Shown in pieces: positions 3,692-64,000 of a stretch of 64,000 nt of DNA. The DNA is taken from contig CM054060.1 in NCBI GenBank assembly GCA_028641055.1, positions 205,182,445 to 205,246,444 of the forward strand, written 5' to 3'. The notes under the pieces are model-generated. The model saw only the letters and a program-made list of their open reading frames with translations, made no database searches and was not told where the DNA came from. How positions within the stretch are numbered: the first letter of the stretch is position 1; the number at the start of each line of letters is the position of its first letter. The position numbers were made by a program, and so were the translations under genes. Origin of the DNA: Alopecurus myosuroides. Taxonomy: Eukaryota > Streptophyta > Magnoliopsida > Poales > Poaceae.

Positions 3692-6439
3692 TCACTCTTC
3701 GACATCCGCATACTCGTCGTCGTCCTTGCTATCACTCGGATTCTCCGGAGTTGATGGAATTTCTTCCTTCACGTAGAATGTGGTGGTGGAGACCATCTGA
3801 CTGATCTTGGAGGTATATACCTTGACAGAATTGAAAATGTCCGCCCTTTGAGCTTCGGTGTAGTCTTGGGGGATGCTGGTTGCGACGCGCCATGTTTTCG
3901 CGGAGGGGTATTGCATAAGCATGAGCCCAAGGGCCATGCGCACTCTACCGCGTGCTGCTGACTTCATCCAGGATTCCCGCTACAAGATAACTTCATTGAA
4001 GGCATCGGGAAGTCCCCAATGTCGGAGTAGTCATCCTTCTTATCTGGGAGGCACTTGCTAACAAGCTTCCTGCCAGATTTTTTCATGCTTTCGGCGAAGC
4101 CACCGAAAGCTCAGATGTTCTCTTTCCGAGAAAAAGAAGGATTGCCTTCCGCTAAAAGAAGGAATAGATAAATGTTAGTATAACTCAGAGAAGAACAATA
4201 CCAGTTCTAAACTGAAAGAAAACCGGTAAAATTAAAAGCATACCGAGAATATGTTTGTCTATCTCCGCGATCTCCTCGAGGCGATCGTGAAGAGAAGACT
4301 CCAGAACCCGGATGGTGGAGCTGTCTTTTTTGCTCTAAGCTTTTAGCCGAGCCTCGAAAGTTTCCAAGTTCTTTCGGCTTTCAGCCAGCTCCTTCTGGAT
4401 CTTCAAGTTTTCCTTGCGAATTTCCAGGTATTCGTTTTGGAGCTGCTGAGCATTGCCAGAATCGGCAGCTATCTGCTGCGCTTCAGCAGTCAAGGCTATA
4501 AAGACGGAAAAAATAGTTAGCGCGAAAGCATACAAACTCGCAAGGCAAAAAATCATATAATGAAAAAGTATACTTACAAGCATTCTCCTTGAATTGCTTT
4601 TGAACCTCCGCAAGATCTGTCTCCTTTTCCTCCGTGATTTGGAGGAAGGAGCGCACCTCCTTATTTTTCATGGAAAGCTTTTCGAGCACTTCCATGTTAA
4701 TGCTTTCGGCGGTTTGCTAAAAGAGAGCAGACGAGAGAAATCGGTGAATCCAAAAGAAGAAGATTGTATCCTAAAAAGTATTAATACAAAAAGAATGCTT
4801 TTGTATTAATGCTTGAGGGCTGGAAGTATGCCTGGCTCATCTTTTGGATCCCTGAAAGCATATCGGTGAAATCCTTGCTCGAACCTGCGAAGAAAATCCC
4901 TAGATGGCAAATGTCGTCTTGAATGACCTGCCGATGGGAGAAAGTGTAGTTATGCCGGATAATTAAACCTCCTTGCTTCCAAGGACGGATCAGGGGGCCT
5001 TTGACAAATTCTTTTATAGCCCATTGGTGCATATAGTCATTCTTGTCACAACATGCTTCCTGTTTTACCTTGAACTTGTGGTCAAAAGACGAAGCGTCTC
5101 GTCGAGATTGACGAAGGACGACTCTCCTTGCTCTGGCTGTGCCGCCCTTTCCCGCACATCTGGGAAGGATGTATCAGGATGGCTGGGCTGGTTGGAAGGT
5201 GGAAGATCTTCGTCTTGAACAGGGGCGGGATGCTGTCCCAAAACATCCGCCACTAGTGTGTCCGAGGCGACGGAGGGAGAAAGCTTTGGTTCACGGTGTG
5301 CGATAACTTTCCGCCTTTTCACTTTTGTCCCCTTTAGAGGGACGGGAGATAGACTGGAAAGGAGGAAAATAATACTATTGATTAAACCGGTGAAACTTGT
5401 GAATGCAAAAATAAAGGTATGATAAATACCTGGAAGTATAGACGGCTACGCCATCTAGGTTGATGGCCTCTGAGGTGGAAAAAGCCTGCTTCGTTTCCTG
5501 CCTTTCGAAGTTGCAAACCTGGACTTCACGGCCGCGTCTTCCTCGGCAGACACAAGTTGGTCTTCCGACAGGGTCTCAAGCTGCAAAAACATGAAAAGAT
5601 GTTAGTATACTTTCGTATGTGCAAAGAATAAAAATCCTTCCTAAAAGTCAAAAGCATGAAAAGTACCTCGAGAGGAGGGTTTTCTGCAGTGTACATGGCC
5701 AGGCTCTCCACGTACTGGGTGCGGGTAGATACCAAATGATTCACCCTTTTCTGACATGTTTAGTAGGACATTCCGGAGCTGGTCACCCGCATGGTATCCT
5801 CTAGGACTTGGTAGGTGCAGAGAAGATGGCCGGCGCGGTGAGAGAGTGGTTGGATCCATCGACCCAGCCATCATAAGACAGTGTCCATCCCCGTAAGAGG
5901 TGGGGGAGGACACGACCAACTTGGAAATCTGCCTCTTGATCCTTAGTAGACCTGGCCGCAGTTCCTGGACGATGTCTAGTGCCCAGTTATCCCTGGGATA
6001 GGTGGAGTAATTTTCGAAAGGTGGAATCCCTGTATCCTTTCTAGGATAAGGGGTATCCAAATAATAAAAGAAGGAACCCGTCCAGTGTTCGACAGATTGT
6101 GATGTTTTGATCTGTAGGAACCATTCCTCTCTGCCACGACGCAGATTCAAGGTTATGGTCCCGTAGATAGGAGGAAGGCCATCAGAAGTGTTTCGCTTCA
6201 CATAGAAGCAATATTGGAAAAAATCTAACCTAGGAGCTATTCCTAGGTAGCCCTCGAATAAGGCTTGAAAGTCAGAAAGCTAGATGATGGAGTTGGGAAA
6301 AAGATTATGCGGCTGGACACCGTAATGGTGGAGAATCTAAAGTAAAAGGCGGAAGGGGGGAAACCCATAACTCAGAGAGCGTGCGTGGCTGGCACGACCC
6401 TTTCTCCGTCTTCTGACTTGGGTTCTTCGTCTTCCTCCT
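3692..6439 (-). pseudogene. Element A antisense gene, 3' part (last exons and most of exon 1), decayed
   Basis: Homologous to the intact antisense gene of element B (12271-15215). Readable pieces on the minus strand are: end of exon 1 at 5667-6201 (RREEWFLQIKTS, WTGSFFYYLDTPYPR, PRDNWALDIVQ), matching the family annotated as putative gypsy type transposon domain (PF04195); a middle exon at 5065-5322; coiled-coil exons at 4335-4695; and the acidic C-terminal exon at 3692-3967 (MALGLMLMQYPSAKTWRVA, then many D and E). Intron boundaries fall where they do in B, for example after PPLE at about 5667. Stops and frameshifts are scattered through exon 1. Element B is inserted just after the codons for RIEE, so exon 1 resumes at 16307. 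Confidence 0.82.
6435..6439. repeat. Target site duplication of element B, left copy (CTCCT)
   Basis: CTCCT directly precedes the TGTCGG start of the 5' LTR. The same five bases follow the 3' LTR at 16307-16311. A perfect 5-bp duplication is standard for Ty3/gypsy integration and fixes the element ends. Confidence 0.95.
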
Positions 6440-6991
6440 TGTCGGATATATACCAAATAGGGGTATAGAAGATGGTAGACAAAGTGCCGGATTACCAGGG
6501 TGGCCTAAGTGGTAGTGGGCTTAGGTCCATTAGGCGGCCCAGTAATCCGACGCACAGAAGCCGGATTCTAGAAGAACCCGGATCACGGCCCATGTGATCT
6601 GGCTTGGAGGAGAAGACGGATTCCTTGCTTTCCAAGTTACAAGTTACCGTAGTCTTCTAGGTTTCCTATTCTGTAAGCCCTAATCCGGCTATTATATAAA
6701 GCCGGACGGGAGATAGATAGAGAGAACGAATAACAGAGAAGCTCTACGCCAACTCGCCGAGAAGCTCATCCTCGTCGAGTAGATTATATCTAAACCCTCA
6801 CATTGTATCCCTGTTTACGGGCTTTAGTCCCGATTAGTGAGAAGTGCAGGAGTAGGCACGTCGTACTGTCGCGACGTACCGAACCTGGGTAAATCCTGTG
6901 TTCTGTGTTTACTACGCGATCCCGTTACCCCACGTCTCTACCGTAGTCTCATGGCACCCCCGTCTATGAAAACTACTACGATGTCTCGACA
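6440..6991 (+). repeat. Element B 5' LTR
   Basis: Starts TGTCGGATATATACC and ends ATGTCTCGACA. It is near-identical to 15755-16306. The visible differences are AGACGG versus AGAAGG near 6617 and two bases in AGATTATATC versus AGCTTAGATC near 6783. It carries the sense promoter (TATA at 6693-6700). The downstream 270 bases become the R/U5 leader and contain start codons in frame with gag. Confidence 0.95.
6693..6700 (+). promoter_or_regulatory. LTR TATA box driving element B gag-pol
   Basis: TATATAAA in the context GGCTATTATATAAAGCC. Transcription would start roughly 25-35 bases downstream, near 6725-6735, leaving R/U5 between there and 6991. The same motif occurs in A's 3' LTR (CTATCTATATAAAGCC near 17537). 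Confidence 0.75.
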
Positions 6992-9900
6992 GTTGGCGCC
7001 CACCGTGGGGCAAACGACGTCAGGCGTAAAATTCCGATCTGGGATACTTGGCGGAATCGGAAGATCAATCACTGTCGGAAGCTTGGAGTTCGACAACGAC
7101 GTCGGGCGCTTCCTCGACAACGGATCCTACATACCGGCGCAAAACCACCTGGTAAGTGCCTGCGTGTTACCGATAGGATCTGCTAACATCTTTATCGGAC
7201 TAACTGCAGAAGCAATGGGGTTTTGCGGTGGAAGCAAATTTATCCCACCCGCCCTATACCCAGTCGAAGATGACTATGATGCCGGATTCTGCTCAGATCG
7301 CCGACAAAAAAGTGATACACACTTTATCGGCATGGTGCAATCCGAAATCGCCGAAAACACGGATGACGGAAATCCCGTGCAAGAGGCAGACAACAACGCA
7401 CCCGTCATGGAGACGGAAGATCAAACACCCGTCACAGAGGCGGAAGATCCGACATCCGTCAACAAGACGATGAACTCGGAAGCAGAATCCGTGCTTGCCG
7501 CCATTGAGGCGAGGTTGGAGTCGGAAACCGGATCGGATAACTTCGACTCCGAAGACGAAGATGAGGACGCCTTCGTAAGAAAGGTTAAGTCCTTTCAAGA
7601 GGGATTCCATGAAATTCTAATGGCGAAACCGGCTGATACCACGGACGCCGGCAGCCAGGAAAGCCCTAAAACCCCTCCGCCAGAGGAAGAGAGAGAAGAC
7701 GGAGAAACTTCTCCGATATTCCCCAATGTCAAGGAGATGACAGAAGATGAACCTGTCAAAAAACCTCCCTCTTCCAAGAAAAAGCACCGTGCTGCTAAAA
7801 AACTCCAATACAAAATCCGGAAGAAAAAATCAGCTGATCTCGCTGATGAAAACCTGGAAGTAGGAGATGTTAGCGGAACAAAGCCTGCGGAGAAGAAATC
7901 CAAAGAAATCACTGCTCCGCCAATGACGGAACAGGAAGAGCAAGAGCTATTGCAAACACCAGTGGGACCAGATGAACCCCCTGAGATGCTGGAAGCCAGG
8001 AGACAAGCTTTCCAACGGCAACAGCAACATCTACTCAGATCTCGGCAACATCTCCAACAAACCCATAATGACATCAAGGTCATGAAGGAAGAAATAGAGG
8101 AGTACGAGAGAAAGAATAGATCCGCGTTAAAACCTACTAGGTTACCCGGAATCGCAAGACCGGAAGAACTGCTGCCAAAAGAAAGGTTCCATAACCCATC
8201 TTGGGAAAAGCAGGTAAACGGCAAAGATGCCAAGGGCGAACCAATATACAAGACCGCAGCAGAAAACGCGGAAGCAGCGTTCGCGATTCTTAACAACGAT
8301 CTGTATTCCAACGGGGAAAAACTCCAAGGGGTGTATGCTTTCCTAGGAAACGCATTGCAACAACAACAGCGCGCCCAAGAGCGATCAGGGAGGCTGCATG
8401 ATAACTCCGCCCTATGCAAAACAGCTACTTGCGCTGCTGGAGCACCTGGACCGGAAGAACCCGGGGATTCAGACAACTCAAAAGATAAAAAAGAGGATCC
8501 GAGAAAAGACAAGAAAAACCCCGACAACCGGGATGCAGCGTCTAGGACCGGATCCCATCTCCCGAAAGATGGACATAAACCCCGTGATCGGGAAGACAAA
8601 CACTGGAACGACGGCAAAATAATGCCACCTCCGAGAAACCCAGCTGAGAAAGCTGGAAGATACGATATACCTCACAGGCGTGAGAGATCCCGGACACCTC
8701 CTAAGGACAAAGAAAGGCACAGGAGTAGAACTCCGCCTAATCCGAAAGGGCGTGATCACGGAAGAGATAGAAACAATCCCGGAAAAGCGCGTTCGCGCAA
8801 CAATGGAAGAGAAAGGAGCAGATCCCCTTCCGTCCATTCAGCCGGAAGATATTTTGCACACATTGACAGAGCAGAAAAGGATGATCTATACTTTGGTCCT
8901 AAGTGTTTTACTGACAGGATCCGAAGAATAACGCTGCATTCTGGCTTTGCCAAGGTCGGTCCAACGTACCAGAAATACACCGGTAGCACAAACCCGGATA
9001 CCTGGCTCTCGGATTACTATACAACCGTCCAGATCAACAATGGGACAGACTTGGAAGCTGTCAAGTTTCTTCCCCTAATGTTGCTGGACGGAGCCAGAGA
9101 TTGGATCAATGGATTACCATCAAGAACAGTCGACAGCTGGGATGATATGGCTAGAGTATTCACTCAGCATTTCCGGGGAACGTACAAACGCCCGAACAGC
9201 ATCAACCAGCTAAACCGTTGCACGCAATTCGAAGATGAACCATACGTGGATTTCATCTCCAGATGGACAACAATGAAGAATAGTTGCTCTGGAGTAACTG
9301 ACGTACAAGCAATGCATGCTTTCGTCAATGGCCTAAAACCCGGACTCGTACCGTTCATGGTTGGTTCCAAAAAGCACAAAGATCTTGGATCTATGCTTAC
9401 AACCGCCAATGAGCACGCTGCAGCCGAAAACGACATCAGAGCAAGAGGAGGCAATATCGAATCACTGATACTTGCCAAGAAAACCCCTCGTTCTGACAAA
9501 AAAGGAACTCCAGAAACAACGACGAAACCCAAAGAGGTCAACATAGCATTTGGAGGAGAAAAGGGAAACAAGTGGAAAGGACGCAACCCAGATCCAATCA
9601 ACTACACTCCAGAGGAGTGGGAAAGGATTAAGTCGGAACCTTGTGTTCACCACTCGCAATTTGGGAAACCCACCCATACAAACGCGCAATGCCGGCTAAA
9701 TAAGCACATGAAAGGCAGTGCAGGAGCCGGAAGTAAGGGGAAGGGTTCCAAAAGGAAACCCGCCAAACAAAAGCCAGAAGCTGACAAAGAAGACAGCGAA
9801 TCGGACACTGACGAAAAAATCCAGGAACAACAGCGTAAAAGCGAACCCAAGTTTCCAAGAATTCATGGAGAAGCAATGCTAACTTTCTTAGCAACCCCGT

Positions 9901-9995
9901 CAGCAAAGGTGGCCAAAAGAACACTTCGAGAAATAAACGCGGTTGTTCCGGCAACCCCGAAATTCTTGAAGTACTCCAACACACCGATAATCTAG
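6837..9995 (+). CDS. gag: Element B Gag polyprotein, reading frame starting inside the LTR
   Basis: This is an open frame of 1,052 codons. In-frame ATGs lie in U5 at 6837 and, last before the LTR end, at 6981 (MSRQLAPTVG), which would give about 1,004 residues. The N-terminal third is acidic and low-complexity (many E, D, P). There is a coiled-coil Gln/Arg-rich stretch at about 7940-8130 and an Arg/Asp/Lys-rich stretch at 8480-8840. The retrotransposon gag domain is at about 8970-9450 (TNPDTWLSDYY, WDDMARVFTQHFRGTYKRP). Near the C terminus the zinc-knuckle-like CVHHSQFGKPTHTNAQC (from 9642) fits the plant Tat Gag. The frame stops at TAG 9993-9995, but the same frame continues into protease, so the stop is probably a mutation. 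Gag packages the element RNA in cytoplasmic particles. Confidence 0.85.
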   Translation: MRSAGVGTSYCRDVPNLGKSCVLCLLRDPVTPRLYRSLMAPPSMKTTTMSRQLAPTVGQTTSGVKFRSGILGGIGRSITVGSLEFDNDVGRFLDNGSYIPAQNHLVSACVLPIGSANIFIGLTAEAMGFCGGSKFIPPALYPVEDDYDAGFCSDRRQKSDTHFIGMVQSEIAENTDDGNPVQEADNNAPVMETEDQTPVTEAEDPTSVNKTMNSEAESVLAAIEARLESETGSDNFDSEDEDEDAFVRKVKSFQEGFHEILMAKPADTTDAGSQESPKTPPPEEEREDGETSPIFPNVKEMTEDEPVKKPPSSKKKHRAAKKLQYKIRKKKSADLADENLEVGDVSGTKPAEKKSKEITAPPMTEQEEQELLQTPVGPDEPPEMLEARRQAFQRQQQHLLRSRQHLQQTHNDIKVMKEEIEEYERKNRSALKPTRLPGIARPEELLPKERFHNPSWEKQVNGKDAKGEPIYKTAAENAEAAFAILNNDLYSNGEKLQGVYAFLGNALQQQQRAQERSGRLHDNSALCKTATCAAGAPGPEEPGDSDNSKDKKEDPRKDKKNPDNRDAASRTGSHLPKDGHKPRDREDKHWNDGKIMPPPRNPAEKAGRYDIPHRRERSRTPPKDKERHRSRTPPNPKGRDHGRDRNNPGKARSRNNGRERSRSPSVHSAGRYFAHIDRAEKDDLYFGPKCFTDRIRRITLHSGFAKVGPTYQKYTGSTNPDTWLSDYYTTVQINNGTDLEAVKFLPLMLLDGARDWINGLPSRTVDSWDDMARVFTQHFRGTYKRPNSINQLNRCTQFEDEPYVDFISRWTTMKNSCSGVTDVQAMHAFVNGLKPGLVPFMVGSKKHKDLGSMLTTANEHAAAENDIRARGGNIESLILAKKTPRSDKKGTPETTTKPKEVNIAFGGEKGNKWKGRNPDPINYTPEEWERIKSEPCVHHSQFGKPTHTNAQCRLNKHMKGSAGAGSKGKGSKRKPAKQKPEADKEDSESDTDEKIQEQQRKSEPKFPRIHGEAMLTFLATPSAKVAKRTLREINAVVPATPKFLKYSNTPII
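6994..7011 (+). other. Element B primer binding site
   Basis: TGGCGCCCACCGTGGGGC begins two bases after the LTR end. It starts TGG, complementary to a tRNA CCA tail. Element C has the same site with one change (TGGCACCCACCGTGGGGC), so the primer is shared. I do not assign the tRNA species from memory. The gag reading frame runs straight through this site (LAPTVG). Confidence 0.88.
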
Positions 9996-11645
9996 GATCA
10001 GTCTGATCATCCCGGAAATATCCCTGAACCCGGCACACAAGCTCTTGTTGTAAGCCCTATTGTTTAAAACACTAGGCTAAGAAGAGTGTTGATGGATGGA
10101 GGATCCAGCATTAATATAATGTACCTGGATACACTGAAGCATCTGAAGATTTCCGAGTCTCAGCTCAACTACAGCAATATACGTTTCCATGGCATTGTCC
10201 CTGGCAGGCAAGCACGATCCCTAGGAGAAATTTCCCTAGATGTCACCTTCGGAGATAAAGATCACTTCCGACAGGAAAAAGTATCCTTCGAAGTAGTGCC
10301 GTTCGAAAGCGTGTATCACGCAATACTCGGACGTCCAGCTTTCGCCAAATTCATGGCAAGATCTTGTTATATCTATAACAAGCTGAAGATGCCAGGACCC
10401 AAGGGAGGAGTAATCACTATAGCCGGTGATTTCAAGCTGGCAAACGAGTTGGAGAAAGAAAACGCCCTTTGCGCTCAGAGAGTCATAGCAAAGGAAGAAC
10501 TGAAGGAATTAGCCAAGGAGGTATCGCCGTCAGAAATGCCGGCAGGAAAAGAAACCCGGAAGCCAACAGACAGCTTCAAGGCGTCCGAAAATACAAGACA
10601 GGTAATCCTAGATCCCAAAGATCCGACAAAATTTGTCGTCGTAGGGACTGGGATGACTGACAAATAGGAAGGCGAGCTCATCAAGTTCCTCCGTGAGAAC
10701 TGGGATATTTTTGCCTGGTGTCCAGCTGACATGCCAGGTTTACCCAGGGAACTTGCTGAGCACCAACTCAAGGTTATTCCTGGATCAAAACCCGTCAAAC
10801 AAGGTCTCCGTCGATTTGACGGAAGAAGACGGAAGGCTATTGGCAAGGAAATTATCCGGCTTTTAGCAGCGGATTTCATCAAGGAAGTAATCCATACTGA
10901 CTGGTCCGCAAATCCGGTATTAGTACCGAAGAAAGACACTACTGCTCTTAGAATGTGTATAGATTACACAGGCTTGAACAAATTGTGTCCGAAAGATAGG
11001 TTTGCATTACCGCGAATCGATCAAATAATAGATGCCACCGCAGGCTCTGAGCTTTTGTGCTTTTTGGATGCATACTCCGGGTACCACCAAATACGCATGA
11101 AAAAGGAAGATCAAATTAAGACTTCTTTCATCTCCCCATACGGGACGTATTACTACGTAACCATGCCGTTTGGCCTGAAGAACGCAGGTGCAACCTACCA
11201 GCATTGCATGCAACGTTGTTTGCATAGTCAGATTGGAAAAAATGTCCATGTTTATGTGGACGATATTGCTGTCGTAACCAAGGAAAAAGATACACTCCTT
11301 GAGGATTTGCGAGAAACTTACGAAAACTTACGCACCTACAAGATGAAGTTGAATCCATCTAAATGCGTATTCGGGGTTCCCTCAGGAAAACTTCTGGGTT
11401 TTATCGTTTCTCACAGAGGAATAGAAGTTAACCCGGAAAAGATCAAGGCAATCTTGAACATCACAAAACCTACCTGCGTCAAAGATGTCCAAAGATTGAC
11501 GGGTTCTGTTGCAGCCGTCAGCAGATTTATTAGTCGGCTGGGGGCTAAAACCCTAACACTATACAAGTTGTTGAAGAAATCCGACAAAGTCAAGTGGATA
11601 GCAAAGCTTTGGAATACATAGCAGTTATGTCTCTTCCATACTTAG
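9996..11645 (+). pseudogene. pol: Element B protease and reverse transcriptase, with in-frame stops and RNase H/integrase deleted
   Basis: Continues the gag frame. An aspartic protease with active site DGGSS (10095-10109) and ILGRPAFAKF (about 10325) is followed by RT with the motifs MCIDYTGLNKLCPKD, PFGLKNAGATYQ and YVDD (11253-11264). Stops in the same frame are TAG 9993, TAA 10065 and TAG 10665. After the RT thumb/connection (LLKKSDKVKW, about 11595) the sequence jumps to the last residues of the integrase gene (WNT-stop-QL, compare WSIQQL in A at about 3043). An internal deletion of roughly 2.2 kb therefore removed RNase H and integrase while keeping the frame. TAG 11619-11621 lies in that remnant. 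The copy cannot transpose on its own. Confidence 0.88.
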
Positions 11646-12270
11646 TTCAATATCTATGTAAACATCTTTTGAGATCATGAAATAAAGTTGTTGGATTTCT
11701 GGTATCCATGTTTTTTACAAGTTTATTATAGTAAAAGCATGTTTCCACCTTCTCTATTTCCCAATGATCTTACAAAATACTCAATGTTAACCCGAATTGT
11801 GCCTGCATACTCGGCGTTAAGAAACTGAATGTTTTTTCAGCCTGTTAACGGCTAAAGGAAACTTGAATTGCCTGCGTGCCCAAGTTTCGGTCAAAAAATT
11901 CCTTGTTTCTCTAAACATTATCTGATTGCGTATGTGTTGGGTTACTGGAGCTAGTTAGTAAAAATGCCTTTAGCATGATCCATGTTTCCGAGTTTAAACT
12001 GATTGGTTACACCCAGTTACTCGGCATGATGATTCATATTGCTATTTGAGCCATTTCAAACACTAAGGACAGTTAAAACATATATGCCAGAGAACTTAGA
12101 AGATAAAGGAATAGTAACATCCGAAAAACCTTGCAAATTTTTTCATAATTAAGACTGCAAAAGGCGGAATTTTTCACTAATACAAATAGAAGCATTACAT
12201 TTTGGATTACATTGAAATAACAGTAATGCTCCTATTGTTTACTTTTACTATCCAGGTCCAAGGTAGCCCT
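11646..12270. other. Element B spacer between convergent pol and antisense gene
   Basis: No coding frame. Homologous to 3079-3691 of A. AATAAAG at about 11681 is a candidate poly(A) signal for a plus-strand transcript. The antisense gene ends at 12271 on the other strand, so transcripts from the two units would converge or overlap here. Confidence 0.6.
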
Positions 12271-15215
12271 TCAAGCATCTGATTCCTCCTCGCTGCTGTC
12301 GTCCTCGGGGATTGGAGGGATCTCCTCTTCTGGATAATTGACGGAAATATTTACCATGGAGGCGATCTGGGTGGCGTGGCCTTTGATTTCATCAAAGATG
12401 GTATTTCGCTGAGTATCCGTGTATCCTTGAGGGACACCGGACGCCACGCGCCAAGATTTAGCACCAGGGTAGTGCATGCGCATAAGGCCGAGTGCCATGC
12501 ACGCACCACCCCGTGCAGCGGAACGCAGGATGGAATCCCTGGATTCCGCCACCTCCATGATGGCTCCCGGAAGTTTTTCAACCTCCGAGAACTCCCCAGT
12601 CCTTGCGGGAAGGAACTTGTTCACCAGCTGCATTCCAGCAGCACGGATCGAAGTCCACATCTTCCCAAAGGCCTGGATCCCTTCAAGCCGGGTACCATCT
12701 GGGGTATCTCCTGTTTTTTCCGACAAAACAACCAAAAGTGTTAGGTGAAAAACAGAGAAGAAAAACAAGATATGGAAAAATAAAGAAGGTAACAGAAAAT
12801 TACCGATAAGCTTGTCGATCTCGGAGATTTCCTCCAGGCGAAGATTCAGATCATTTTCTAAATCCTGAATGGTGGATTTATCCTTCTCCGCTTGCTCGCA
12901 AGCCTTGGAGTTGGCAACTCCAAGGGCCAAGTTGCTGGCCTCCAGATCCTTTTGAGCCTTCACAAGATGCTTGTGAAGCTCCAAATTCTCCTTTCGGAGA
13001 TTCTCGGCATTGCCGGCATCTTCAGCTATCTGCTTGGCCTTGGCCAAAGCAGCTGGAAAGCAAAGAAAATTCCGAGTTTAGAAAATTTCCGGAATAAATA
13101 CTTAGACAAAAAATTGAATCGCAAACTTTAGAGAAAAAATGTTTACCTATTGTTTCCGACAAAGCGAGCTGAGACGATGCCAGTTCCGTCTCTCTCTCCT
13201 CAAGAATAGAAAGAAGATTTCTAACCTCTTTATTCTTGATGGAGAGTTTGTTGAAAACTTCCATGTTAATGGCTTCGGCGGTTTGCTGGAACATAGCAAG
13301 GAAAAGAATGGTTACAAAAAGCATCAAAGCAAAAAAGGCATGCAGTTTTGTTTAATGCTTGGGGGCTAGAGTTACATACCTGACTCATTCGTTGCAAACC
13401 CGCCAAGTTTTCTTTGAACTCTTTTGCGTATTCCGCAAAAAGGGTTCCGGCCGCGCTTAGGCCGTCATTGATAATCTTGAAGTCCTTGTCAAAGGTGGGA
13501 ATTTCTTCGTCGAAAGTTCGAGGAAATTTTCCCACCTCTGGAGCCGCCCTTTCCCTCGTGTCCGTGTCCGACACAACAGGCTGGCTGGGCTCCAACGGCT
13601 TGGTCGTGGGGGCTGTAGCGTGCTCTTCCGCCATCGTGGACGGTGTGTCCGGGGCGACGGTGGGAGAAGGTTGACCGCCTCGGCTGGAAACAACTTTGTG
13701 TTTCTTGAGCTTCTTCGGCTTTAGGTTGGAGGGAGGCAGGCTAAAAACAAAAAACCCGGAAAAGTTAAAACACGGAAGATGGATGAAAAGTTCCCATGAA
13801 AGAAAAAGAACCCAGAAGAAAGAACCTGGAAGTGGCGACGGGGATTCCGTCAAGGTCGATAACTTCCTCAGAGGAAGAAATCTTCTTGCGCTTGCGTCCA
13901 CCTATAGCAGCGGTGCGCAGCGCGTCCAGCTCAGCCTCGGAGGCCAACTCCGAGTCTGGAAGATCCGCGAACTGTTGGAAAAACAAATCGGAATCAGAAG
14001 CTAGAAAATCCGAGAAAGAATGCTGAAACTATACCCAAATGACTGAAAAGTTACCTTGGGGACTGGATTGTCGGCTGTATACATTGGCCGACTCGCTTCG
14101 TATTGGTCGCGTGATGCGACCAACTGGTTGATGCGCCGTCGAAGCTCCTTTGCGGGCCAATCTTTGTTGGTTGTCCGCATTGGATCCTTGGCTCCCGTGT
14201 ATTCGCACAGGAGGCGACCACCGTGGTTGGCCAATGGCTGAATCCGTCTATTCAACCAGCAAAAGACCGTGTCCATACCGGTCAAAGGTGGAGTGGAGGA
14301 GGTGAGCTTAGCGATGCGCCGCTTGATCCTTAGTAGATCAGGCGGCAGAACCTGGACGGCTTCCGTTCCCCAGTTGTCTTGGGGAACTGCGGCAGAGTTC
14401 GAGAAAGGAGGAACCCCGATGGCTTCCTTAGGGAAAGGCACATCGGGATGGTAAAAGAAGGAACCCGTCCAAAATTTGACGGATTCCGACGTTTTGATCT
14501 TGGAGAACCAATCTTCTCGAAATCTCCGAAGAGTGAAAGAGATGGTTCCGCAAGTCGGGAGTGCGCCCTCCGAAGAGTTCCGCTTAACCCCGAAGCAATA
14601 CGTCCAAAAGTCTAACCTAGCTTCTAGCCCTAAGTAGCCCTCGAACAAAGCCTGAAAGCCGGCCATGTAGAGGATGGAATTGGGTGGCAGGTTGTGGGGC
14701 TGGATGTTGTAATGGGAAAGAACTTGGAGGAAGAAGGCGGAAGGTGGAAGGCCCATACCTCGAAGAAGATGGGAGGAGAGGAGAACCCTTTCGCCGTCTT
14801 TCGGCGTTGGTTCATTCTCGTCCTCAGGAAGACGCCACTTCCCCTTAAGGACCAAGCCCTCTTTCTCCATGTTTGGAAGAAGAGCCGGGGGAATGCTGCA
14901 GGCAATCCAGTTGCCTGCAGCTTCCGTCTCTTCATCCGCTCCGGTGGCGGCGGTGGTGGCAGCTTTCGCGGCGGCGAGCTCGTCACCGACGAGCTGGATC
15001 TTCTCCTCCGCCGTTTTAGGAGCAAACGGCGGGGAAGCGGCAGAGCTCGCGCCCGCAACGTCCGCGGCGGCGGAAAGGTTTTCTCCGCCCGCCGCGGAGG
15101 CCGCGGTTTTCTCCGGCTCGTCGCCGGCGTGCTTGGGTGACCCAAGTTGTGGATCTAGGTCGCCGATGAGGTCGTCGATGGAGGCGCGAGTAGGCGAGGA
15201 CGGTGAGGTTGCCAT
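12271..15215 (-). CDS. Element B antisense gene: six exons, 831-residue protein with PF04195-like domain and coiled coil
   Basis: Exons on the minus strand: 15215-14055, 13971-13826, 13740-13380, 13285-13147, 13052-12804 and 12710-12271. All five introns are GT-AG and 82-99 bases long. Exons sum to 2,496 bases, exactly 832 codons, with the frame open across every junction. The N-terminal 120 residues are Ala/Glu-rich. Residues about 125-330 match the family annotated as putative gypsy type transposon (PF04195): LPPNSILYMAGFQALFEGYL, FREDWFSKIKTSESVKFWTG. Exon 3 is Pro/Thr-rich. Exons 4-5 are heptad-like (NMEVFNKLSIKNKEVRNLL, LRKENLELHKHLVKAQKDLE). Exon 6 ends in an acidic tail. A TATA box lies 136 bases upstream. 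Extra antisense ORFs next to the 3' LTR are known in Tat elements such as maize Grande. The function is unknown. The exon-intron model is my inference from frame and splice sites. Confidence 0.82.
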
Positions 15216-15350
15216 TTCCTGGCAGCGCGATTCGTTTCCGGTGTGCTTGGAGGCAAGGTGCGCTCGGGGCAGTGCTTTGCTTGAGAGCTCGTGCGCGTCA
15301 ATGGCAAGTGCGGTGAGGGTGCGGAAGGTTTTCGTTGAGGACGAGGATGG

Positions 15351-15360
15351 CTATTTATAG
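15351..15360 (-). promoter_or_regulatory. TATA box of element B antisense gene
   Basis: CTATAAATAG on the minus strand, 136-145 bases before the ATG at 15215. Equivalent motifs precede the antisense gene in A (16898-16906), C (TTAAATA, 27740-27746) and D (TATAAATAG, 63142-63150). This supports a real second promoter that is independent of the LTR. Confidence 0.72.
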
Positions 15361-15740
15361 CTAAAAATCCGTCAAGATACGTGCCAACGGCTATTTTGAC
15401 CGTTGGATGTTTGCCGCGTGTCACTCGCCGGAAAATCCGGGAAATGAAACGACAGGGTAATGATGGTTATCTCTTCGTTTCCCGCGAGAATCTGTCAGAG
15501 ATATGTTTCTGGGTTTTCCGAGTAAAACCCAAACGTCACTTACGTCAGCATGGTTAAGTGCGCTGACGTAAGAAGTTTCTTCTCCGCGAAGGATCGTGAG
15601 AGAAAAGCCGGATTTTCAGGATTTCGAGTTTCATGTTACCATCTTTTTCAAAAGAAGAATAAGAAGAATCAAGACTGCTGAATCAATATTTCTCGGACAA
15701 AGTATATTTGGCGAAAGACGGAGAATCAGAGTTTCGATCC
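15361..15740. other. Upstream region of element B antisense gene / 3' untranslated region of gag-pol
   Basis: There is no coding frame. Short repeats occur (CGTCACTTACGTCAGC near 15532, TGACGTAAG near 15565). The TGACGT cores are typical bZIP binding motifs and lie upstream of the antisense TATA box on its strand. That they regulate the gene is only a suggestion. Confidence 0.4.
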
Positions 15741-15754
15741 TTCTTGGGGGCTAC
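15741..15754 (+). other. Element B polypurine tract
   Basis: TTCTTGGGGGCTAC immediately before the 3' LTR start TGTCGG. Element A has CTTGGGGGATCA at the same place (17270-17281). It primes plus-strand DNA synthesis. The run of purines is short, as is usual for this group. Confidence 0.75.
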
Positions 15755-16306
15755 TGTCGGATATATACCAAATAGGGGTATAGAAGATGGTAGACAAAGT
15801 GCCGGATTACCAGGGTGGCCTAAGTGGTAGTGGGCTTAGGTCCATTAGGCGGCCCAGTAATCCGACGCACAGAAGCCGGATTCTAGAAGAACCCGGATCA
15901 CGGCCCATGTGATCTGGCTTGGAGGAGAAGAAGGATTCCTTGCTTTCCAAGTTACAAGTTACCGTAGTCTTCTAGGTTTCCTATTCTGTAAGCCCTAATC
16001 CGGCTATTATATAAAGCCGGACGGGAGATAGATAGAGAGAACGAATAACAGAGAAGCTCTACGCCAACTCGCCGAGAAGCTCATCCTCGTCGAGTAGCTT
16101 AGATCTAAACCCTCACATTGTATCCCTGTTTACGGGCTTTAGTCCCGATTAGTGAGAAGTGCAGGAGTAGGCACGTCGTACTGTCGCGACGTACCGAACC
16201 TGGGTAAATCCTGTGTTCTGTGTTTACTACGCGATCCCGTTACCCCACGTCTCTACCGTAGTCTCATGGCACCCCCGTCTATGAAAACTACTACGATGTC
16301 TCGACA
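15755..16306 (+). repeat. Element B 3' LTR
   Basis: 552 bp, TGTCGG to CTCGACA, a near-perfect copy of 6440-6991. The long open frame crossing its right end into A sequence (16152-16760) is a by-product of the LTR-encoded gag start and is not a gene. Confidence 0.95.
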
Positions 16307-16311
16307 CTCCT
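16307..16311. repeat. Target site duplication of element B, right copy (CTCCT)
   Basis: Identical to 6435-6439. Joining the two flanks restores the exon 1 frame of A's antisense gene across the site. Confidence 0.95.
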
Positions 16312-16751
16312 CGATCCGCCACTTATTTTTAAGGATAAAGCCATCCTTCTCCAAACTCCAGAGAAGGGTCGATGTGATCGAGAAGAGTATCCAGTTGTCG
16401 GCTTCTGGCCCTCGTCCCCCTTCTTCCTCAGCTCTGGCAGCCACCTCGCCCGCTGTATCTTCTCTGGCGTGGGGATTGTTTCCATCACCCATCGACTCCG
16501 CCATTGGGGGCTGCAGAGGAATAGATGGAGGGGGCATAGAAGAGCCCGCGGGGGTGCTAGGGTTGCCCACCGCCGATGAGCTTGCCGCGTGTTCTCCGGT
16601 GGCCGTGGAGGCCCCGGGGACTGCGGTGGAAGAGCTCGCCACCGTTGATGGAGATCTTGTTGCGGTGGGAGTAGGTGTGGCAGTAGGATTTGCAGCTGAT
16701 GCGGCCGTGTGCACAGTCTCTTTCTCCGGCCATCTTGGTGCAGAAGGTCAC
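16307..16751 (-). pseudogene. Element A antisense gene, 5' end of exon 1 (separated by element B)
   Basis: The minus-strand frame from about 16714 to 16307 has an Ala/Thr/Pro-rich start, then NWILFSITSTLLWSLEKDG and LKNKWRIEE. This matches NWIACSIPPALLPNMEKEG and LKGKWRLPED in B, and the next residues are found at 6439 downward. The probable ATG (ATGGCCGGAG, 16751) is one frame away from the rest, so a small indel near 16735 has broken the start. Confidence 0.75.
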
Positions 16752-16897
16752 CGGACGTGAGCCGGATCCGCCGATGATGTATGTTCTCCGGGGAAGTTCT
16801 TGCCCTCGTGCTTTTCTCTCTCAGAGTGAAGCTCTTGGGGAATTGTCTCGAATGAATCACGGTGGGGAAGGAAAATGGAACAAAAGAGGCGATGAGG

Positions 16898-16906
16898 TAT
16901 TTATAG
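16898..16906 (-). promoter_or_regulatory. TATA box of element A antisense gene
   Basis: CTATAAATA on the minus strand, about 150 bases upstream of the start region of the antisense gene. It corresponds in position to 15351-15360 in B. Confidence 0.6.
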
Positions 16907-25875: not shown

Positions 25876-26294
25876 AACCGCCAGTGCTAAGTGTTGCTCA
25901 CGGGCTGGTGGGCCCATCCTCTCTTTCCCCCTTGTCTCTTTTCTTTCCCCTCAGTTTCTCTTCGGCCGGCACGAAGACACATCTCCCCTCTCTCACCGCA
26001 CGGCCGTCACCAGCGCCTCCAATCCTATCTCTCCCTGCACCGCCATCTTCCAGGTCACCGTCACAAGCACCTCCCTCCGCGCGCCACCCGATGCAGATAG
26101 GAAATCACCGACAAGGAGGAGAAGGAGGAGACCCCCGACGCCGTCGCTCACGCTTACGTCGATGTCGTCGCCACCCATTTTGTTACCAGCACCTCCCTCC
26201 CTGCACCACCCGATGTAGAGAGGAGATCACCGACAAGGAGCAGAAGGAGGAGGAGATCCCCCACGCCGTCACCCACGCCCGCGTCGAGGTCGTC
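25876..26294 (+). repeat. GC-rich leader with a tandem duplication of about 125 bp, split by element C
   Basis: Unit 1 (about 26066-26190) and unit 2 (about 26191-26294, continuing at 55411) share ACCTCCCTCC...CACCCGATG.AGA, ATCACCGACAAGGAG.AGAAGGAGGAG and CACGCC.CGTCGA.GTCGTCGCCACCCA. Element C cut unit 2 at TCGTC. The region has the look of a GC-rich exon or 5' leader of the CACTA-associated gene resumed right of C. No single frame is convincing. Confidence 0.5.
26290..26294. repeat. Target site duplication of element C, left copy (TCGTC)
   Basis: TCGTC before TGTAGTGG. The partner is at 55406-55410. Removing C rejoins a tandem-repeat unit (GTCGTCGCCACCCA), which independently confirms the insertion. 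Confidence 0.92.
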
Positions 26295-27196: not shown

Positions 27197-27212
27197 TTAG
27201 TCCCCGAAGCTG

Positions 27213-27828
27213 GTAGTGTCCGGTGGACTTGGACATTGGGCCATGCCAGCTTTAAACCAACATAACCTCTGTGATGAATTTCAGCCGAGTTGCACCTCAA
27301 CTCGGTTGTTCACAATCTGAACTCGGACCTTCTCCATTATGGTCTATGGAGTTTTCTTCATTGTGCCGGGTAGACCAAGCTGCTCTGGATTCAACCGAGA
27401 TCCCAACACTTAGCCAAATTTCCAAAACTTTGCCGCTCGAACTAGAGCGTTCCTATCTTCGCGTGTTAAGGCTTTGCACGTGTCATGCAACCGCAGCCCA
27501 CGACGCCTCGGGTCTGATGCGGTTGCACGGCACGCGCCTGCCACTGCACGCCGGGCCCACGGGTCGTTGCGTCGCTTCGCACATGTACTCAAGTACTTCG
27601 TCTGTGAGACGTGGGATTTACTGCGCCCGTTACGTGCGAATCATTCGCTATGTGAGTTTCTAACCGGGCGTGGTAACCCCCCACGTCGCACGATCTTCTC
27701 CACACTTAATCACAGGCCATAACTGCACTTGGGGAGGCTTAAATACCCCCACACCGCCCATTGTTTTAGCTTCCTTCGCCAATTTCTCGCATCGCCTTCT
27801 CCTTTCCTTCGCCGAACGCACAGAGAGC
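27213..27828 (+). promoter_or_regulatory. Element C region between 3' LTR and antisense gene, including its promoter
   Basis: Non-coding upstream region. CTTAAATACC at about 27738-27747 is the TATA-position motif, about 85 bases before the likely ATG at 27829. It corresponds to the TATAAATAG motifs in A, B and D. No other gene seen. Confidence 0.5.
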
Positions 27829-30800
27829 ATGCCGCCCAACTGCGAACCACCAGATTCCGCTGCACGCCGCAGTTCTGCACGCAGAGAGGAGAGAGATCCA
27901 TCTCCGCGCGCCGCCGTTCGCCGAAGAGCACCCGAGAGCGACAAGATCTTCATCGCGCGGCGCCGTCGTCCTCGACCCTGCGCCGCTGTCGCCGTTCGAC
28001 CACAACGCGCCTCCATCTCCATCTCCGTCAAGGTCTTCCTCACCGGAGAATCCCTGATGGAGCTCGAGCCCTCCGCAGAGCTCCCGGAGGGCCCTTCCTC
28101 GATGTGCGCCCACTAGGAAGGCTCGGATGTTAAGGCCAGCGACTGTTAGTGGCTGGTCAACACCCGCCGGGTGCCTCCCGGCGTCATCTGCAGGCCTCCC
28201 GGCAACGAGCTAGAGCCAACTCGTGGCCCTGGTGAGTATGTCGTATTCTTGAGCCACTTTAAACGCGGCTTCGGCCTTCCTGTATCCAAATTCATGCAAG
28301 ACTTCTTCCGCCATTTTGGCCTTCAACCCCACCATCTCCCGACCAACACCATTGCCATGTTATCCACCTACGTTACCTACTACGAGGCGTTCCTCGGTGT
28401 CTACCCCACGGTAGACATTTGGGCGAAGTATTTTTCCTTCCGCCAACAAGTTCTTCCCAACAAGGCCAACCGGACTCCCGCCAAGGGCATGACTCAGACG
28501 GGGACAACCATGATCATTCAGCGGACTCCGAGTACCCACCCGCGAATACTGGATTGGACACCTGCCGGAAGTGGCAGAGAGGCTTCTTGTATGTCAAGAA
28601 CCCCACTCCGGCTGAAGGTGAGCCACAGGTCGACCTCATCAAGCTGCCGGAGTTCAGGAATGTGCCCCCCACCGAGATGAGGAATTGGGGATATCACCCC
28701 AAGAACATTGTGGCAAATGTGAACCATGCTGCCGACCGGCTAAAGCAGCTGATTGAGCAGGGACTCCGAAAGGACGATCTGATCGCCGCCTGGGTGGAGC
28801 GCCAGGTTCCTCCTCTCCAAGAACGAGCGCACAAGGTGTTCTTCATGGGTGGAGCCCGTGACTGCACCCGGACGACCACCTTCGAGCTCACCAAGGAAGA
28901 GGTGGCGATCTGGGCCCGGTCCATCCTCAAGGCCACGCTCTCGGACACCTGGTTCTACGGCTTTGCGCCGTATAGCCGAGACCGACCAGCCCCCAAGGTG
29001 AGTTCCCTTCTGTATGCTCTTAGTTGCTTTTGTTTTTTGTTTCTCCTACCTCATTGAGTAGGTTGCACCTTGGATTCTCTGCCTTAGGCTTAGCCCAATA
29101 TGCTTTGTGTTTGCATGCTATGCTGAGTAGAACTCTCCCGATAGGACTTTAGCTTAGTATGCTTTATGCTTGCATGCTACACCGAGTAGGACTTTCAACC
29201 TGGTAGAACTTAGCTTACTATGATTTACGTTTGCATGCTACATCGGGTAGGGATCTCCAGATAGGACTTAGCTTAATATGCTTCATGCCTGCATGCTACA
29301 CCGAGTAGGACTCTCAACCTGGTTCCCTTTATAGGACTTAGCTTCGTATGCTTCGTGTTTGCATGCTAGGCCGAGTAGATCCTTAACTTGGTTACCTTGA
29401 GTGTAATCTATTCCTTATGCTATGTGTTTGCATCCTTAGGTTATTTCTCGCCAGAAGACAGAGGATAATGCCGTCAATGAGCGCGACTGGCAGCTGGATC
29501 GGACTGAGGACGACACAGAGGCGTTTGATGTTCAGGATACGCTCTGCATCCCGCTCGCCGACCAAGATGGTAAGTCCCGAGTCTCCACCTCAATTCGGGA
29601 CTGGTCCGAGGACGATGAAGGTGACCGAGTCCACTATTGGCTGCCCTTCAATTTACTCTGGTTTCCCCTCTTACTTGTATTGGCATTTGCTCTTCTTGCT
29701 CGCAGATGAGGTGGAGGAGGAAGAAACGATTGACGCACAACCTGTGTCAATGGCCGCCCCCACCGGAACGAAGGGTAGACCGGGCAGCATAGCAGTTGAA
29801 CCCCCTGCCAAGAAGACGAAGAAGACCACCAAGCGTACCACTGGGCGCAATAAGCGCCCTATCGCGGACGGGTAAGTCCAACCGAGAAGCTTTATGCTTT
29901 GCTTTGTGTTTTCATCTCTCAGTCTTCTCTGTCTTTCTCTGTCCTTGTGCTTTGTGTTTGCACCATTCTCATTCTTCATTTCTTTCTTCTCAGTGACACA
30001 CTTGATGCTGATGCTACTAATGCGCCACCCAAGCCGAGTGCGCCCCAAAACATCGTGGACCTTGATCCCGATGAAGGAGAATAACAACCGGAGGAGAGGA
30101 CCAAGAAGCCTCCTCCCGTCAAGGAAGAGCAAGACCTCGGTGCCGACAACACTGGCACCGAGATGGAGACTGATCGAGTTCCGGTGCAACCGGAGCCCAA
30201 CATTGAGCAGCTAGCAATGGAGCCCCCTGCCGAGACGCGACAGCCCACGCCAGAACCTGCCTCTGAGCCGCAGCAGCCCACACCGCCAGCACCAAAGCCG
30301 AGTGAGCGACAGCCTACACCACCAGCACCACAACCAACTCCGCAACAACAACCTCCAAAACCTGCCACCGAGAAGCAACCAACACCGCCAGCAGCAAGAC
30401 CAATTCCGCAGCAGCAACCGCCCAAAGAACAACCCAAGCGAGCCACATGGCAAGCCGGGCAGCAGCAACCGGAGGAGAAGCGGAGGCTAGCGCGATCTTC
30501 CGAGTACCCGCTACCAAGTGCCAAGGAGGCCGGGCAGCCACAGTAGCAGCCACAGCAGCAGCAGCCCTCAGCCAAGAAACAAGCTCCTCCGCCGGTACCA
30601 AAGACGACATGGCCACTCAACAAGCCCAAAGCACCTAGGCCCTTGGATACTGCGGCCGCAGCCGAGAAGGCCACCACCAAGACCACCGCGACTGCCCAAA
30701 ATGGCTCTATCACTTGCAGCACCATGTTGGTGCAGCACAAGATCAAGTTCGGACGCAAGGATCAACAAGCTGCAGGAGCGGGTATCAGCAGAACCGCTTC

Positions 30801-33125
30801 CCCTGCAAGCTTCCCGGATCACTGGCGCGAACTGCAGGAGGAGCACAAGCAGCGGCAGGAGCGTGAAGCTGAGCAGCGAGAGGAGCTGAAGAGGAGGAAG
30901 AAGCTCGCCGCCACCAGATCCAAAGGCAAGGAGGGTACTCTGACCATCCAATATGCCGTCCCAATAACGGAGCTTGCCCATGAGCTCCGAGAGGACATAG
31001 AGACTGTCCTGGATCGGATAGGCCACATCGAGTCAGACTGGGACAACAAGAAGCTTGGCCGTCCGGAATGGTACGGCCTAAGACTTAGAAGTCTGGACAA
31101 CTAACGGCAGGCCTGGAACAAAGCAGATGCTGGCCCTGTCTCGATGGCCGTAGCCGCGTCCAGCAGCACCTTAGCGCACAAGATGTACTGTCTGCGCAAA
31201 GCTACTGAGAATGCCGATAACACCAACCGGTTAAGTACATTTCTCAGCTATCCGGATTTCTGAGTTGCAACCGTTTCCATCTGTCTTCTATCTGTTTTCT
31301 ATCCACCATCCAGTCCCCGAGATTTGGGCCGAGTAGGCAAGACTCGACCGAGTTGCAGTCTACTCAGGCTGAATCTTCCCACTCACACTTTCTCATTTTT
31401 TCTTCTTCAGGAATGCACCATAGCCCGCACCAGGCTATCAAGGCAAAGAACCGGGCACCGGCATCAGTTTTCTAACTTGGTTCCTACTTCCCAACTCACA
31501 GCTGTCCTGTAGCAAGGCATTGTAGATGCTACCACCAAGATCTCCTCTTTAGAGAGTGAGTGCCAGTACTTTGGTTTGTGCGTTTTGTGTCTACGCCCAT
31601 TTTTTATCTCTGCTCAATTTCTACTTCTCTGCAGGTTAGTATAAAGCCCTTGCTGACAAGCACCAGGACTGTGAAGTCATGGCTGAATCAGCACAGAGCA
31701 AGATCACTTCTTTGGAGAGTAACTGATCGGGTTTCTCTCTTTATAGATGCGCACAAAGCCTTCCTCGAGAAGCACCAAGGGTGTGTTACCCCAGCCGAGG
31801 TGCAGCAGCAAGTGCAAGCCAGGAAGGCCAAGCTAGAGAAGGATCTTGCCGCCGAGAAGGAGGAGGTGCTCAAGCTCAAACGTGAGCTCGCTGAATCCCT
31901 CAAGTCGGCACTGCAAGCTGAGACCGTCAATAACGAGGCGCTGAACCGGGCAGCTGTTGATAAGGTGGAGCTGGAAAGGGAGATTGATTCCCTCAGAGCC
32001 TGGAACAATGACCTTGACACCATGCTGGTCAGCTCCCGAAGCTTGCTGGATAAGGAGCATGCTCTTGCAGAAGGGTGGTCTGGCCGGCTTAAAGATCTCA
32101 TCACTGATCTGCGCTGTAAGTTACCGTTCCTATCTGACTTATTCCATCCGGCTTCTTCTACTCAGTTTCTCTTCTTCAGTTCTTCTTATCTGGTTTCCTT
32201 AGTCTACCCAGCATCACCTCTATCAGGGACCTTCCCGGATCTCAATGCCCCTGCTGAGGAAGCTATGGCCAAGGCCAGGGTGTTGCGGAAGGATCTTGGT
32301 CATGATGTTACCAACTCGGTTTTCATCGATGACCAGATTGAGAATATCAAGACCCGGGTTCATCTCCTCAAGGGCCTGGGCACCACTCTGGTTTCCACTG
32401 GGATGCGCCTCCACAAAGTCTTATGGCCTGACACCAAGCTCCCGACTACCATCTCCAATCTGGCCTCCGACTTGGACTACGCCAAGGTGGAGCTAAAGAA
32501 ATGGCGTGCCACAGCGGCCCGAGCTGGCGCAGATGAAGCACTCCTCTTCGTGCTGTCCTGGTACGAGAACTTGGACCTCGACAGGCTAAGGAGCTCCGGA
32601 ACAAGTCAAAGTGGACCCACCAAGATGAATATATCCAGCGCCGCAAGGAGACCGCCTACCGGCTTTCCTCTTATGCCGATATTGCCGAGTTCATCGACGG
32701 TCCCACGGAGCCGGACACGGACATCGAAGGCGATGAGGATGAAGATGATGATGATGAAGCCGGCGAGGAAGGAAGCATTGGCGATGAGGAGGAGGAGCAG
32801 GGGCGACGAAGGAGTCGAGCAGAACAATGCCGAGGAGGAGGCCGAGATGGGCGGCGATCAGGCGGCGACTGAGCCAGGAGGTGGCTCGGAAGAAGCCCGG
32901 ACTGACCCGCAGCCCACTGCCCCCTCCGGAGCTGTTACCACCGAGATGGTGATTGCCACTCCTGCTCCCGAGTTAGGCGCAACGGGGGCCGCAATCGAGG
33001 ACGTTGCATCTGGGTCCACTCCTCCAACCTCAACTGCTACCTCCGAGCCCATCTCCGTGCTCGCCTTCGAGTCTTCGGATCTATCCAGTACAGAAGCCAA
33101 TTCCACTCCCTCGACAATATCTTAA
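27829..33125 (+). pseudogene. Element C antisense gene, multi-exon, decayed
   Basis: Runs opposite to element C's gag-pol. Exon 1 (about 27829-28997) carries the PF04195-like part: GFGLPVSKFMQDFFRHFGLQ, LGVYPTVDIWAKYF, PPTEMRNWGYHPKNIV and WVERQVPPLQERAHKV. It ends APK|GT, the same intron position as in B. Further exons are 29440-29569, 29706-29871 and 29994-about 31240 (Pro/Gln-rich, then a Lys/Glu-rich coiled coil), about 31412-31510 and about 31747-32114 (coiled coil, AEVQQQVQARKAKLEKDLAA). The last is 32227-33125 (ARVLRKDLGHDV, then an acidic tail). Donors GTGAGT, GTAAGT and GTAAGT are canonical. Stops (TAA 30082, TAG 30544) and frameshifts (about 28150, 28480, 32590) make this copy non-functional. 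Confidence 0.75.
29083..29439 (+). repeat. Minisatellite of about 60-70 bp units in intron 1 of element C's antisense gene
   Basis: Five diverged units, and part of a sixth, share TAGGACTTAGCTTAxTATGC, TTTGCATGCTA and CCGAGTAGGACTCTC. They fill most of the intron between donor 28998 and acceptor 29439. The intron is 442 bases, versus 83 bases at the homologous place in B, so repeat expansion explains its size. Confidence 0.8.
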
Positions 33126-45508: not shown

Positions 45509-45513
45509 CTAGG

Positions 45514-47826: not shown

Positions 47827-47829
47827 AGA

Positions 47830-63141: not shown

Positions 63142-63150
63142 TATAAATAG
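63142..63150 (+). promoter_or_regulatory. TATA box of element D antisense gene
   Basis: TATAAATAG in GAGCCATTATAAATAGACCC. The same nonamer is found at the equivalent place in B (15352-15360) and, with one change, in A. Confidence 0.7.
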
Positions 63151-63174
63151 ACCCTTAGGGATAACCCTAACCCC

Positions 63175-64000
63175 AACGGCTCACTTTCCCCCATTTCTCT
63201 TCCTTCCTCCGTGCGCAAGCCCACAGAGCGCCATTACGGAAACCTCACGCGCATCACCGGAGCCCATCTGTCGCCGGCTGCGCTCCGCCACTGCGCGCTC
63301 CGCCCCACTGCCAAGATCCGCCGCCAGGCCTCCGACCTGCCCGCCGGGAATCGCGAAGGGACACCAGGATTGCGCCATCTGCCTCCGCAAAGCTTCACTC
63401 AGATCTCCTCCAGTAAGTCTCTTGCATCCATTAATTTGCCCTTGCAATTTCTTGATTTCACCTCAGATTAGATCTAAATCGACCCGCCAATGACTTCTCG
63501 GCCACGCCGAATTAGGTTGCTAGTATTCTTTCTAGCTCGCCCAATAGATAAGATATAGACTTCAATTCACTCTCCTACTACCTGCAATCATTAATTTCGC
63601 CACAAATCTGAAAATGGAATTTCCAATCCGGGCTCTGGCCGTCCAAATTTTCCGCCCTTGCTTCTATCAGCCGGAAGAATCCTCCTTTTCCGGTTCTTTT
63701 GCTCGTGATAGACGTACGGGCAACCATCCATCATCCCCAGATGTTTATTAATACATAAACCTCCATAGCTTTTATAACAATACATGATACCCGGATAGTT
63801 TGTACCTCATTCCGCAAAGTGATACCCGGATAATATCCAGCTTCCATGTTGTCTTGATATCGCTTATCAGTACTCGACCGACTGACAGCTTCCGAGTCTC
63901 ATTCCTCATGTTCTTCTACTTGATGCTTTACAGGTTAACCCCATGGCACCCAAGAAGCAGGGGAAGCAGCTGACCAAGGTCAAGACTACAAACTCCATAT
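63175..64000 (+). CDS. Element D antisense gene, 5' end (partial; cut by window edge)
   Basis: A non-coding first exon (about 63175-63412) with a GC-rich CT-containing leader ends CCA|GTAAGTC. An intron of 521 bases ends TTTACAG at 63933. The second exon begins with a short leader and ATG at 63943 (MAPKKQGKQLTKVKTTNS), open to the window end. The position, own TATA box and strand match the antisense genes of A-C. The PF04195-like part would lie beyond the window. The exon model is inferred from splice consensus only. Confidence 0.5.

Follow-up and report, generated by a model that had tools for sequence, protein, structure and literature searches.

An antisense gene of six exons within element B

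The window analyzed in the current study, a stretch of 64,000 nucleotides from Alopecurus myosuroides, contains an LTR retrotransposon (element B) whose minus strand carries a gene of six exons and five GT-AG introns. The element spans 6440-16306 and is bounded by 552-bp LTRs that differ from each other at 3 of 552 positions as well as by the target repeat CTCCT. At an LTR substitution rate of 1.3e-8 per site and year, this divergence corresponds to an insertion age of approximately 0.2 million years. The features of the element are:

6440..6991, plus strand: 5' LTR, 552 bp; target repeat CTCCT at 6435-6439
6837..11619, plus strand: gag-pol frame with gag (PF03732) and RT (PF00078) domains
11601..11620, plus strand: junction where RNase H and integrase are absent (about 2.2 kb in element A)
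12271..12710, minus strand: exon 6, C-terminal part with acidic tail and stop codon
12711..12803, minus strand: intron 5, 93 bp, GT-AG, 52% T
12804..13052, minus strand: exon 5, remainder of the charged stretch
13053..13146, minus strand: intron 4, 94 bp, GT-AG
13147..13285, minus strand: exon 4, part of a charged, proline-free stretch
13286..13379, minus strand: intron 3, 94 bp, GT-AG
13380..13740, minus strand: exon 3, basic cluster KPKKLKKHK at residues 443-451
13741..13825, minus strand: intron 2, 85 bp, GT-AG, 55% T
13826..13971, minus strand: exon 2, basic cluster RKRKK at residues 413-417
13972..14054, minus strand: intron 1, 83 bp, GT-AG, 46% T
14055..15215, minus strand: exon 1, 387 codons, PF04195/TRP28 at residues 144-211
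15351..15359, minus strand: TATA box TATAAATAG, exact in 28 of the 30 genomic copies listed
15755..16306, plus strand: 3' LTR; target repeat CTCCT at 16307-16311

A sequence-only reading of this DNA had proposed the six exons, the five GT-AG introns, a total of 2,496 bases open across the junctions, and a TATA box 136 bases upstream of the ATG. This model was reproduced exactly, with the exons encoding 831 amino acids plus a stop codon and TATAAATAG located at 15359-15351, which confirms the six-exon antisense frame in B. Exon 1 terminates with the residues ...NPVPK, immediately followed by a conserved donor. When read unspliced from the ATG, the same stretch contains 15 stop codons. Intron 5 is in frame and free of stops, so its retention would keep the antisense frame open. 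The introns of B contain 39-55% T, and five of its six exons contain 17-24% T (maximum 24%).

The openness of the frame was also compared with 40 Markov shuffles in a free search allowing as many as five GT-AG introns, each 80-100 bp long. The longest spliced ORF measured 2,604 nt in the genuine DNA versus at most 1,953 nt in the shuffles (mean 1,137), and the longest unspliced ORF 1,215 nt versus at most 726 nt. The former value exceeds the 2,496 nt of our model, which indicates that a slightly longer alternative model exists. By itself, openness relative to shuffled sequence is suggestive, not decisive; conservation provides the stronger evidence for an antisense gene.

On the plus strand, the first in-frame ATGs of gag-pol fall within the LTR. 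The frame has in-frame stops at 9993, 10065, 10665 and 11619. The damage previously ascribed to this gag-pol is therefore genuine, consisting of the first three of these stops and a large deletion that has removed RNase H and integrase.

Homologous antisense genes in the window and in databases

Homologous genes had also been reported in four further elements of the window, A, C, D and E; for the last three, coordinates were assigned in the present analysis. B is inserted in exon 1 of the homologous gene of A, which is thereby split. The features concerned are:

3716..6437, minus strand: A's antisense gene, decayed, downstream part; the upstream part is found past the opposite end of B
16307..16905, minus strand: A's antisense gene, upstream part, comprising TATAAATA (16905-16898) and the 5' portion of exon 1
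26294-27197 and 54502-55406: LTRs of element C, whose gag-pol is on the minus strand
27739..33125 (far end approximate), plus strand: antisense gene of C, with TTAAATA at 27739, TRP28 at 28192-28449 and an intron-1 donor at 28998
63142..64000, plus strand: first portion of a fourth antisense gene, that of D, with TATAAATAG at 63142 and an ATG at 63943; exon 1 runs beyond the window

The reported homology holds to differing degrees. In A, decayed and split as it is, exon identity to B amounts to 53-64% (exon 1 compared in part), the TATA box is conserved, and all five intron positions remain recognizable, with splice dinucleotides at, or no more than 3 columns from, those of B, apart from one donor that reads GC. 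The compositional pattern recurs as well, with 42-50% T in the introns of A and 19-26% in its exons. The gene of C retains an antisense TRP28 domain, the intron-1 donor of B, and TTAAATA at 27739, but its frame is broken and the comparison covered intron 1 only. For D, the TATA box TATAAATAG lies within the window, and following the gene 2 kb across the window end revealed a 343-aa ORF with PF04195 (E 7.5e-20) and B's intron-1 donor. The proposed gene fragment in E was not supported: the region taken to correspond to it, 61072-61866, holds charged, coiled-coil-like ORF pieces, and the searches returned no convincing relative and no homology to B or C for it.

Several minor features accompany these genes. 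By eye, the gene of C exhibits more intron-like gaps, and tandem repeats of ~60 bp occupy 29090-29436 within its first intron. A chromovirus-like Ty3/gypsy element with RNase H, integrase, SH3 and LTRs of 95% identity is nested in C's integrase region at 34858-48765. About 800 bases separate the TATA box of D from its ATG (63142-63943), and by eye this interval contains intron-like borders, suggesting that the 5' UTR of D may hold an extra intron.

Beyond the window, 13 of the 35 database proteins found extend to the end of exon 1, and 12 of these have a valine exactly at the start of B's intron 1, which implies a GTN codon at that position. Past the valine, the 12 proteins show no mutual resemblance as a group (by eye). 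The exception is a 738-aa Lolium protein (P0024), which continues differently and without the donor. For introns 2-5, the comparison comprised A and B's own family.

Copies of element B across the genome

The 3.567-Gb genome was searched at the DNA level with the antisense gene. The best 40 of 13,912 first-look candidates, B included, yielded 30 loci, all of which were analyzed. Since these copies are ranked by their similarity to the antisense gene, well-kept, intron-bearing copies are favored among them. With this qualification, the five introns are kept in 30 of the 30 listed copies, and every one of them is GT-AG in 27. An open antisense frame is found in 12 of the 30, and frame, splice sites and the exact TATA box occur together in 10; two of the 30 (L030 and L033) are cut off inside exon 6. 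None of the splice-site changes among the 30 is common to several copies, single-copy changes being found at three sites.

Retroelements normally lose introns by passage through RNA, and the persistence of introns through retrotransposition, as had been supposed from B, is now evident from the listed copies. It can be attributed to the fact that the RNA which is reverse transcribed is the sense genomic RNA, where the introns are present as their complement and remain unspliced.

The deletion junction that removes RNase H and integrase is common to 27 of the 30 listed copies, B included, which indicates that B's family is non-autonomous as a group. Of the remaining three, two lack a match at this site and one (L016) contains sequence from the integrase side in place of the deletion. 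The LTR and antisense gene of L016 match at about 98%, and this copy may be related to the autonomous partner. The stop at 10665 is present in all 7 relatives examined, the stop at 9993 in 0 of the 15 examined there, and that at 10065 in 0 of 7.

Seven copies (L031, L032 and L034-L038) carry an exon-1 block of ~800 bp, at 14180-14990, derived from a diverged lineage. Such an imported block points to template switching among related elements.

Selection on the antisense gene and on gag-pol

Substitutions were counted in the 28 full-length copies, leaving out L030 and L033, by a simple nonsynonymous/synonymous (N/S) count with kappa 2 and CpG decay uncorrected. Changes private to one copy have an N/S of 260/135 (omega 0.69) plus 15 stops, whereas changes shared among copies have an N/S of 51/107 (omega 0.17) with one stop common to two copies (Fisher p 1e-12). 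The dN/dS of the young copies, which had been suggested as a check, is thus of two kinds, with private changes under weak constraint and shared changes under strong constraint. A low omega for shared changes and a much higher one for private changes suggest that selection operates at the level of the spreading lineage rather than of individual insertions. Among the 21 closest copies, the contrast across the whole gene is 27/27 shared versus 212/104 private (omega 0.357 versus 0.728, p 0.02).

Most of this contrast is due to the imported block. Across all exons, the near-fixed differences between the 7- and 21-copy subgroups number 15 N and 69 S, and 78 of the 87 near-fixed subgroup differences, mostly silent, lie at 14180-14999. 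Outside of it, omega is 0.38 shared versus 0.66 private in the 28 copies (p 0.071) and 0.38 versus 0.70 in the 21 closest (p 0.13). The weakness of the contrast outside the block suggests that a large share of the selection may have occurred before B's family arose. The gene is kept across copies with selection at the protein level, the p value of 0.071 outside the block being the reservation.

These results also bear upon the possibility that the frame is an old relic, now functionless, which is open in B simply through B's youth. Such a reading would accommodate the private omega of 0.69, the few differences between B's LTRs, the 18 of 30 listed copies without an open frame (2 of them cut off in exon 6), and the nonsignificant contrast outside the imported block. 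However, shared changes are constrained even in the 21 closest copies and the listed copies have no splice-site change in common, only the three found in single copies. We consider a functionless relic unlikely.

It is also conceivable that the antisense transcript acts as an RNA, either by giving rise to dsRNA or small RNAs that target the sense RNA or via transcriptional interference, with its coding capacity being incidental. The gene is exactly antisense to the genomic RNA, and dsRNA roles of antisense transcripts have been discussed (PMC7264820). An RNA role need not preserve a frame or splice sites, however, whereas the shared omega points to selection on amino acids, the substitutions between A and B fall at 37, 30 and 56% for codon positions 1, 2 and 3, respectively, and the sequence is kept in distant relatives. 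With these observations on the opposing side, a purely RNA-based role seems improbable.

The antisense frame had been described as better preserved than pol. The present data do not show this, as gag is equally constrained, the pol deletion of B belongs to most of the listed copies, and the distribution of stops is at chance level. For gag, 17 gag-side stretches were fetched, of which 2 without gag and 3 with partial gag were dropped, and the count region was 6951-9992, the first 41 bases of which are within the LTR. In the 13 matched copies (B plus 12), omega is 0.185 shared versus 0.68 private. A wrong-frame control on gag gave a shared omega of 1.9, which rests on 26 changes (22 N and 4 S, in addition to 2 stops). 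The RT remnant yields 0.286 shared versus 0.516 private in 27 copies (p 0.19). The two gag-pol stops particular to B, compared with none in its antisense gene, are expected by chance from the respective lengths (p 0.43). Of the 12 relatives that have gag in full, all 12 carry it in broken form and 9 have an open antisense frame, although 7 of the 12 had been picked for an open antisense frame; among the five relatives not picked by frame, a small sample, the antisense frame is open in 2 and gag in 0.

An open antisense frame beside a broken gag-pol might also be taken to mean that the host has domesticated B's gene and retains it for a function of its own. The open frames are, however, scattered over 12 of the 30 listed copies, and constraint on private changes is weak overall. 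Furthermore, the private changes in B's own antisense gene comprise 7 at the amino-acid level and 1 that is silent, which speaks for no copy-specific constraint and thus against domestication. We regard domestication as highly improbable.

The predicted protein

The search for PF04195 that had been proposed for the 831-aa product found this domain (Transposase_28/TRP28) at residues 144-211 with an E value of 1.3e-15 and 57.8 bits, above the curated cut-off of 26.2; no other Pfam domain had an E value of 0.1 or less. Residues 531-680 are charged and devoid of proline, and the stretch looks coiled-coil-like. A structure model of exon 1 has a mean pLDDT of 64, with most of residues 111-320 at 80-94 and arranged in two blocks (72 and 58). 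A fold search with this model in PDB, VIA-align and BFVD returned no significant match, which leaves the basic clusters and the literature as the grounds for a nuclear role. From these, the product would probably be a nuclear regulator.

A search with the full-length protein found one relative, an exon-1 protein, and none of 18 pattern matches in IMG/VR was confirmed as a relative. A relationship by descent between TRP28 and the plant mobile domain (PMD, PF10536), which would have been a possible link to anti-silencing, was considered as well and found unsupported, as comparing profiles against three PMD loci from this genome gave a probability of 0.04%.

Discussion

Among plant retroelements, the closest parallels to the gene of B are the antisense TRP28 ORFs, a hallmark of Retand-lineage elements that is found in 97% of clusters (Vicient 2025, PMC11963269); a separate survey gives PF04195 in 23% of Retand elements (PMC6317226). 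Like the gene of B, the ORFs of PMC11963269 are antisense to gag-pol, lie between pol and the 3' LTR, and encode PF04195. Table 1 of PMC11963269 includes Alopecurus myosuroides clusters 2 and 3b, with LTRs of 564/577, an internal region of 8,734, and a pol-to-3'LTR distance of 4,102/4,079, in which RNase H and integrase are absent and TRP28 is present. The corresponding values of B are 552, 8,763 and about 4,135, a match by size and content. Layout, TRP28 and these sizes together suggest that B belongs to the Retand lineage. What differs is the unit described: PMC11963269 counts separate ORFs of at least 600 bp, whereas the antisense ORFs of B belong together as the six exons of a single gene preceded by a TATA box. 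The word "intron" is absent from the main text of that paper.

A second parallel is gene23 of the maize element Grande, an antisense accessory gene located before the 3' LTR with its own upstream promoter and a nuclear protein (PMC7264820). B's gene resembles it in position and strand, and a promoter and a nuclear product are predicted for B as well. The comparison is by description only, and introns are not mentioned for gene23 in the parts of that review covered here, which do urge looking for spliced antisense transcripts. Ogre elements, with their PMD (PF10536) ORFs, likewise encode an extra protein in a related element group (PMC6317226). Outside of plants, HBZ of HTLV-1 is similarly an antisense gene of a retroelement with a spliced form and a nuclear protein (PMC10186651, PMC7264820). 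HBZ has its promoter in the 3' LTR and is a different protein; the analogy is functional and no homology is claimed.

Based upon these features, it is likely that B is a young non-autonomous Ty3/gypsy copy of Retand type, and that its antisense gene is a spliced accessory gene of the element, selected in the spreading lineage, with a product that would act as a nuclear regulator. Host RNA polymerase II would transcribe the gene from its own promoter, for which the TATA box, a consensus match that is also conserved, is the candidate element. The spliceosome would then remove the five introns, and a protein of roughly 831 residues could enter the nucleus by means of its two basic clusters. There, it might regulate the element's transcription, its chromatin state or a pre-integration step, much as HBZ does for HTLV-1. 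In comparison with the sequence-only reading, an intact, intron-rich antisense gene with a conserved TATA box, apparently of the Tat/Retand extra-ORF type with PF04195, stands, and a special preservation of its frame relative to gag-pol is not shown.

Within the open-access literature searched, B's gene would thus appear to be an accessory gene of a known Retand/Grande type, its conserved six-exon form presumably being the new part; if the introns are already in print, the finding is a well-documented new member. The chances seem about even that the Retand antisense ORFs reported separately (TRP28, SMC-like) together make up the exons of one ancient gene with multiple introns, whose introns reverse transcription cannot strip and which element-level selection maintains even without RNase H and integrase. 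If so, the annotation of extra ORFs in an abundant plant element group would change from separate ORFs to one spliced gene. The gene of B also illustrates how a retroelement can harbor and retain a gene dependent on the host spliceosome, and it provides a concrete full-length protein for the question of what antisense TRP28 proteins do.

PF04195 is also encountered elsewhere in the genome. On contig 1 of the genome (G000), several of the top PF04195 loci (L002, L003, L005, L006 and L007) are located within 2 Mb, at about 541.7-543.7 Mb. Their open frames span 326-543 aa, and where aligned they are approximately 70-78% identical. These loci represent a diverged local family that perhaps lies outside retrotransposons.
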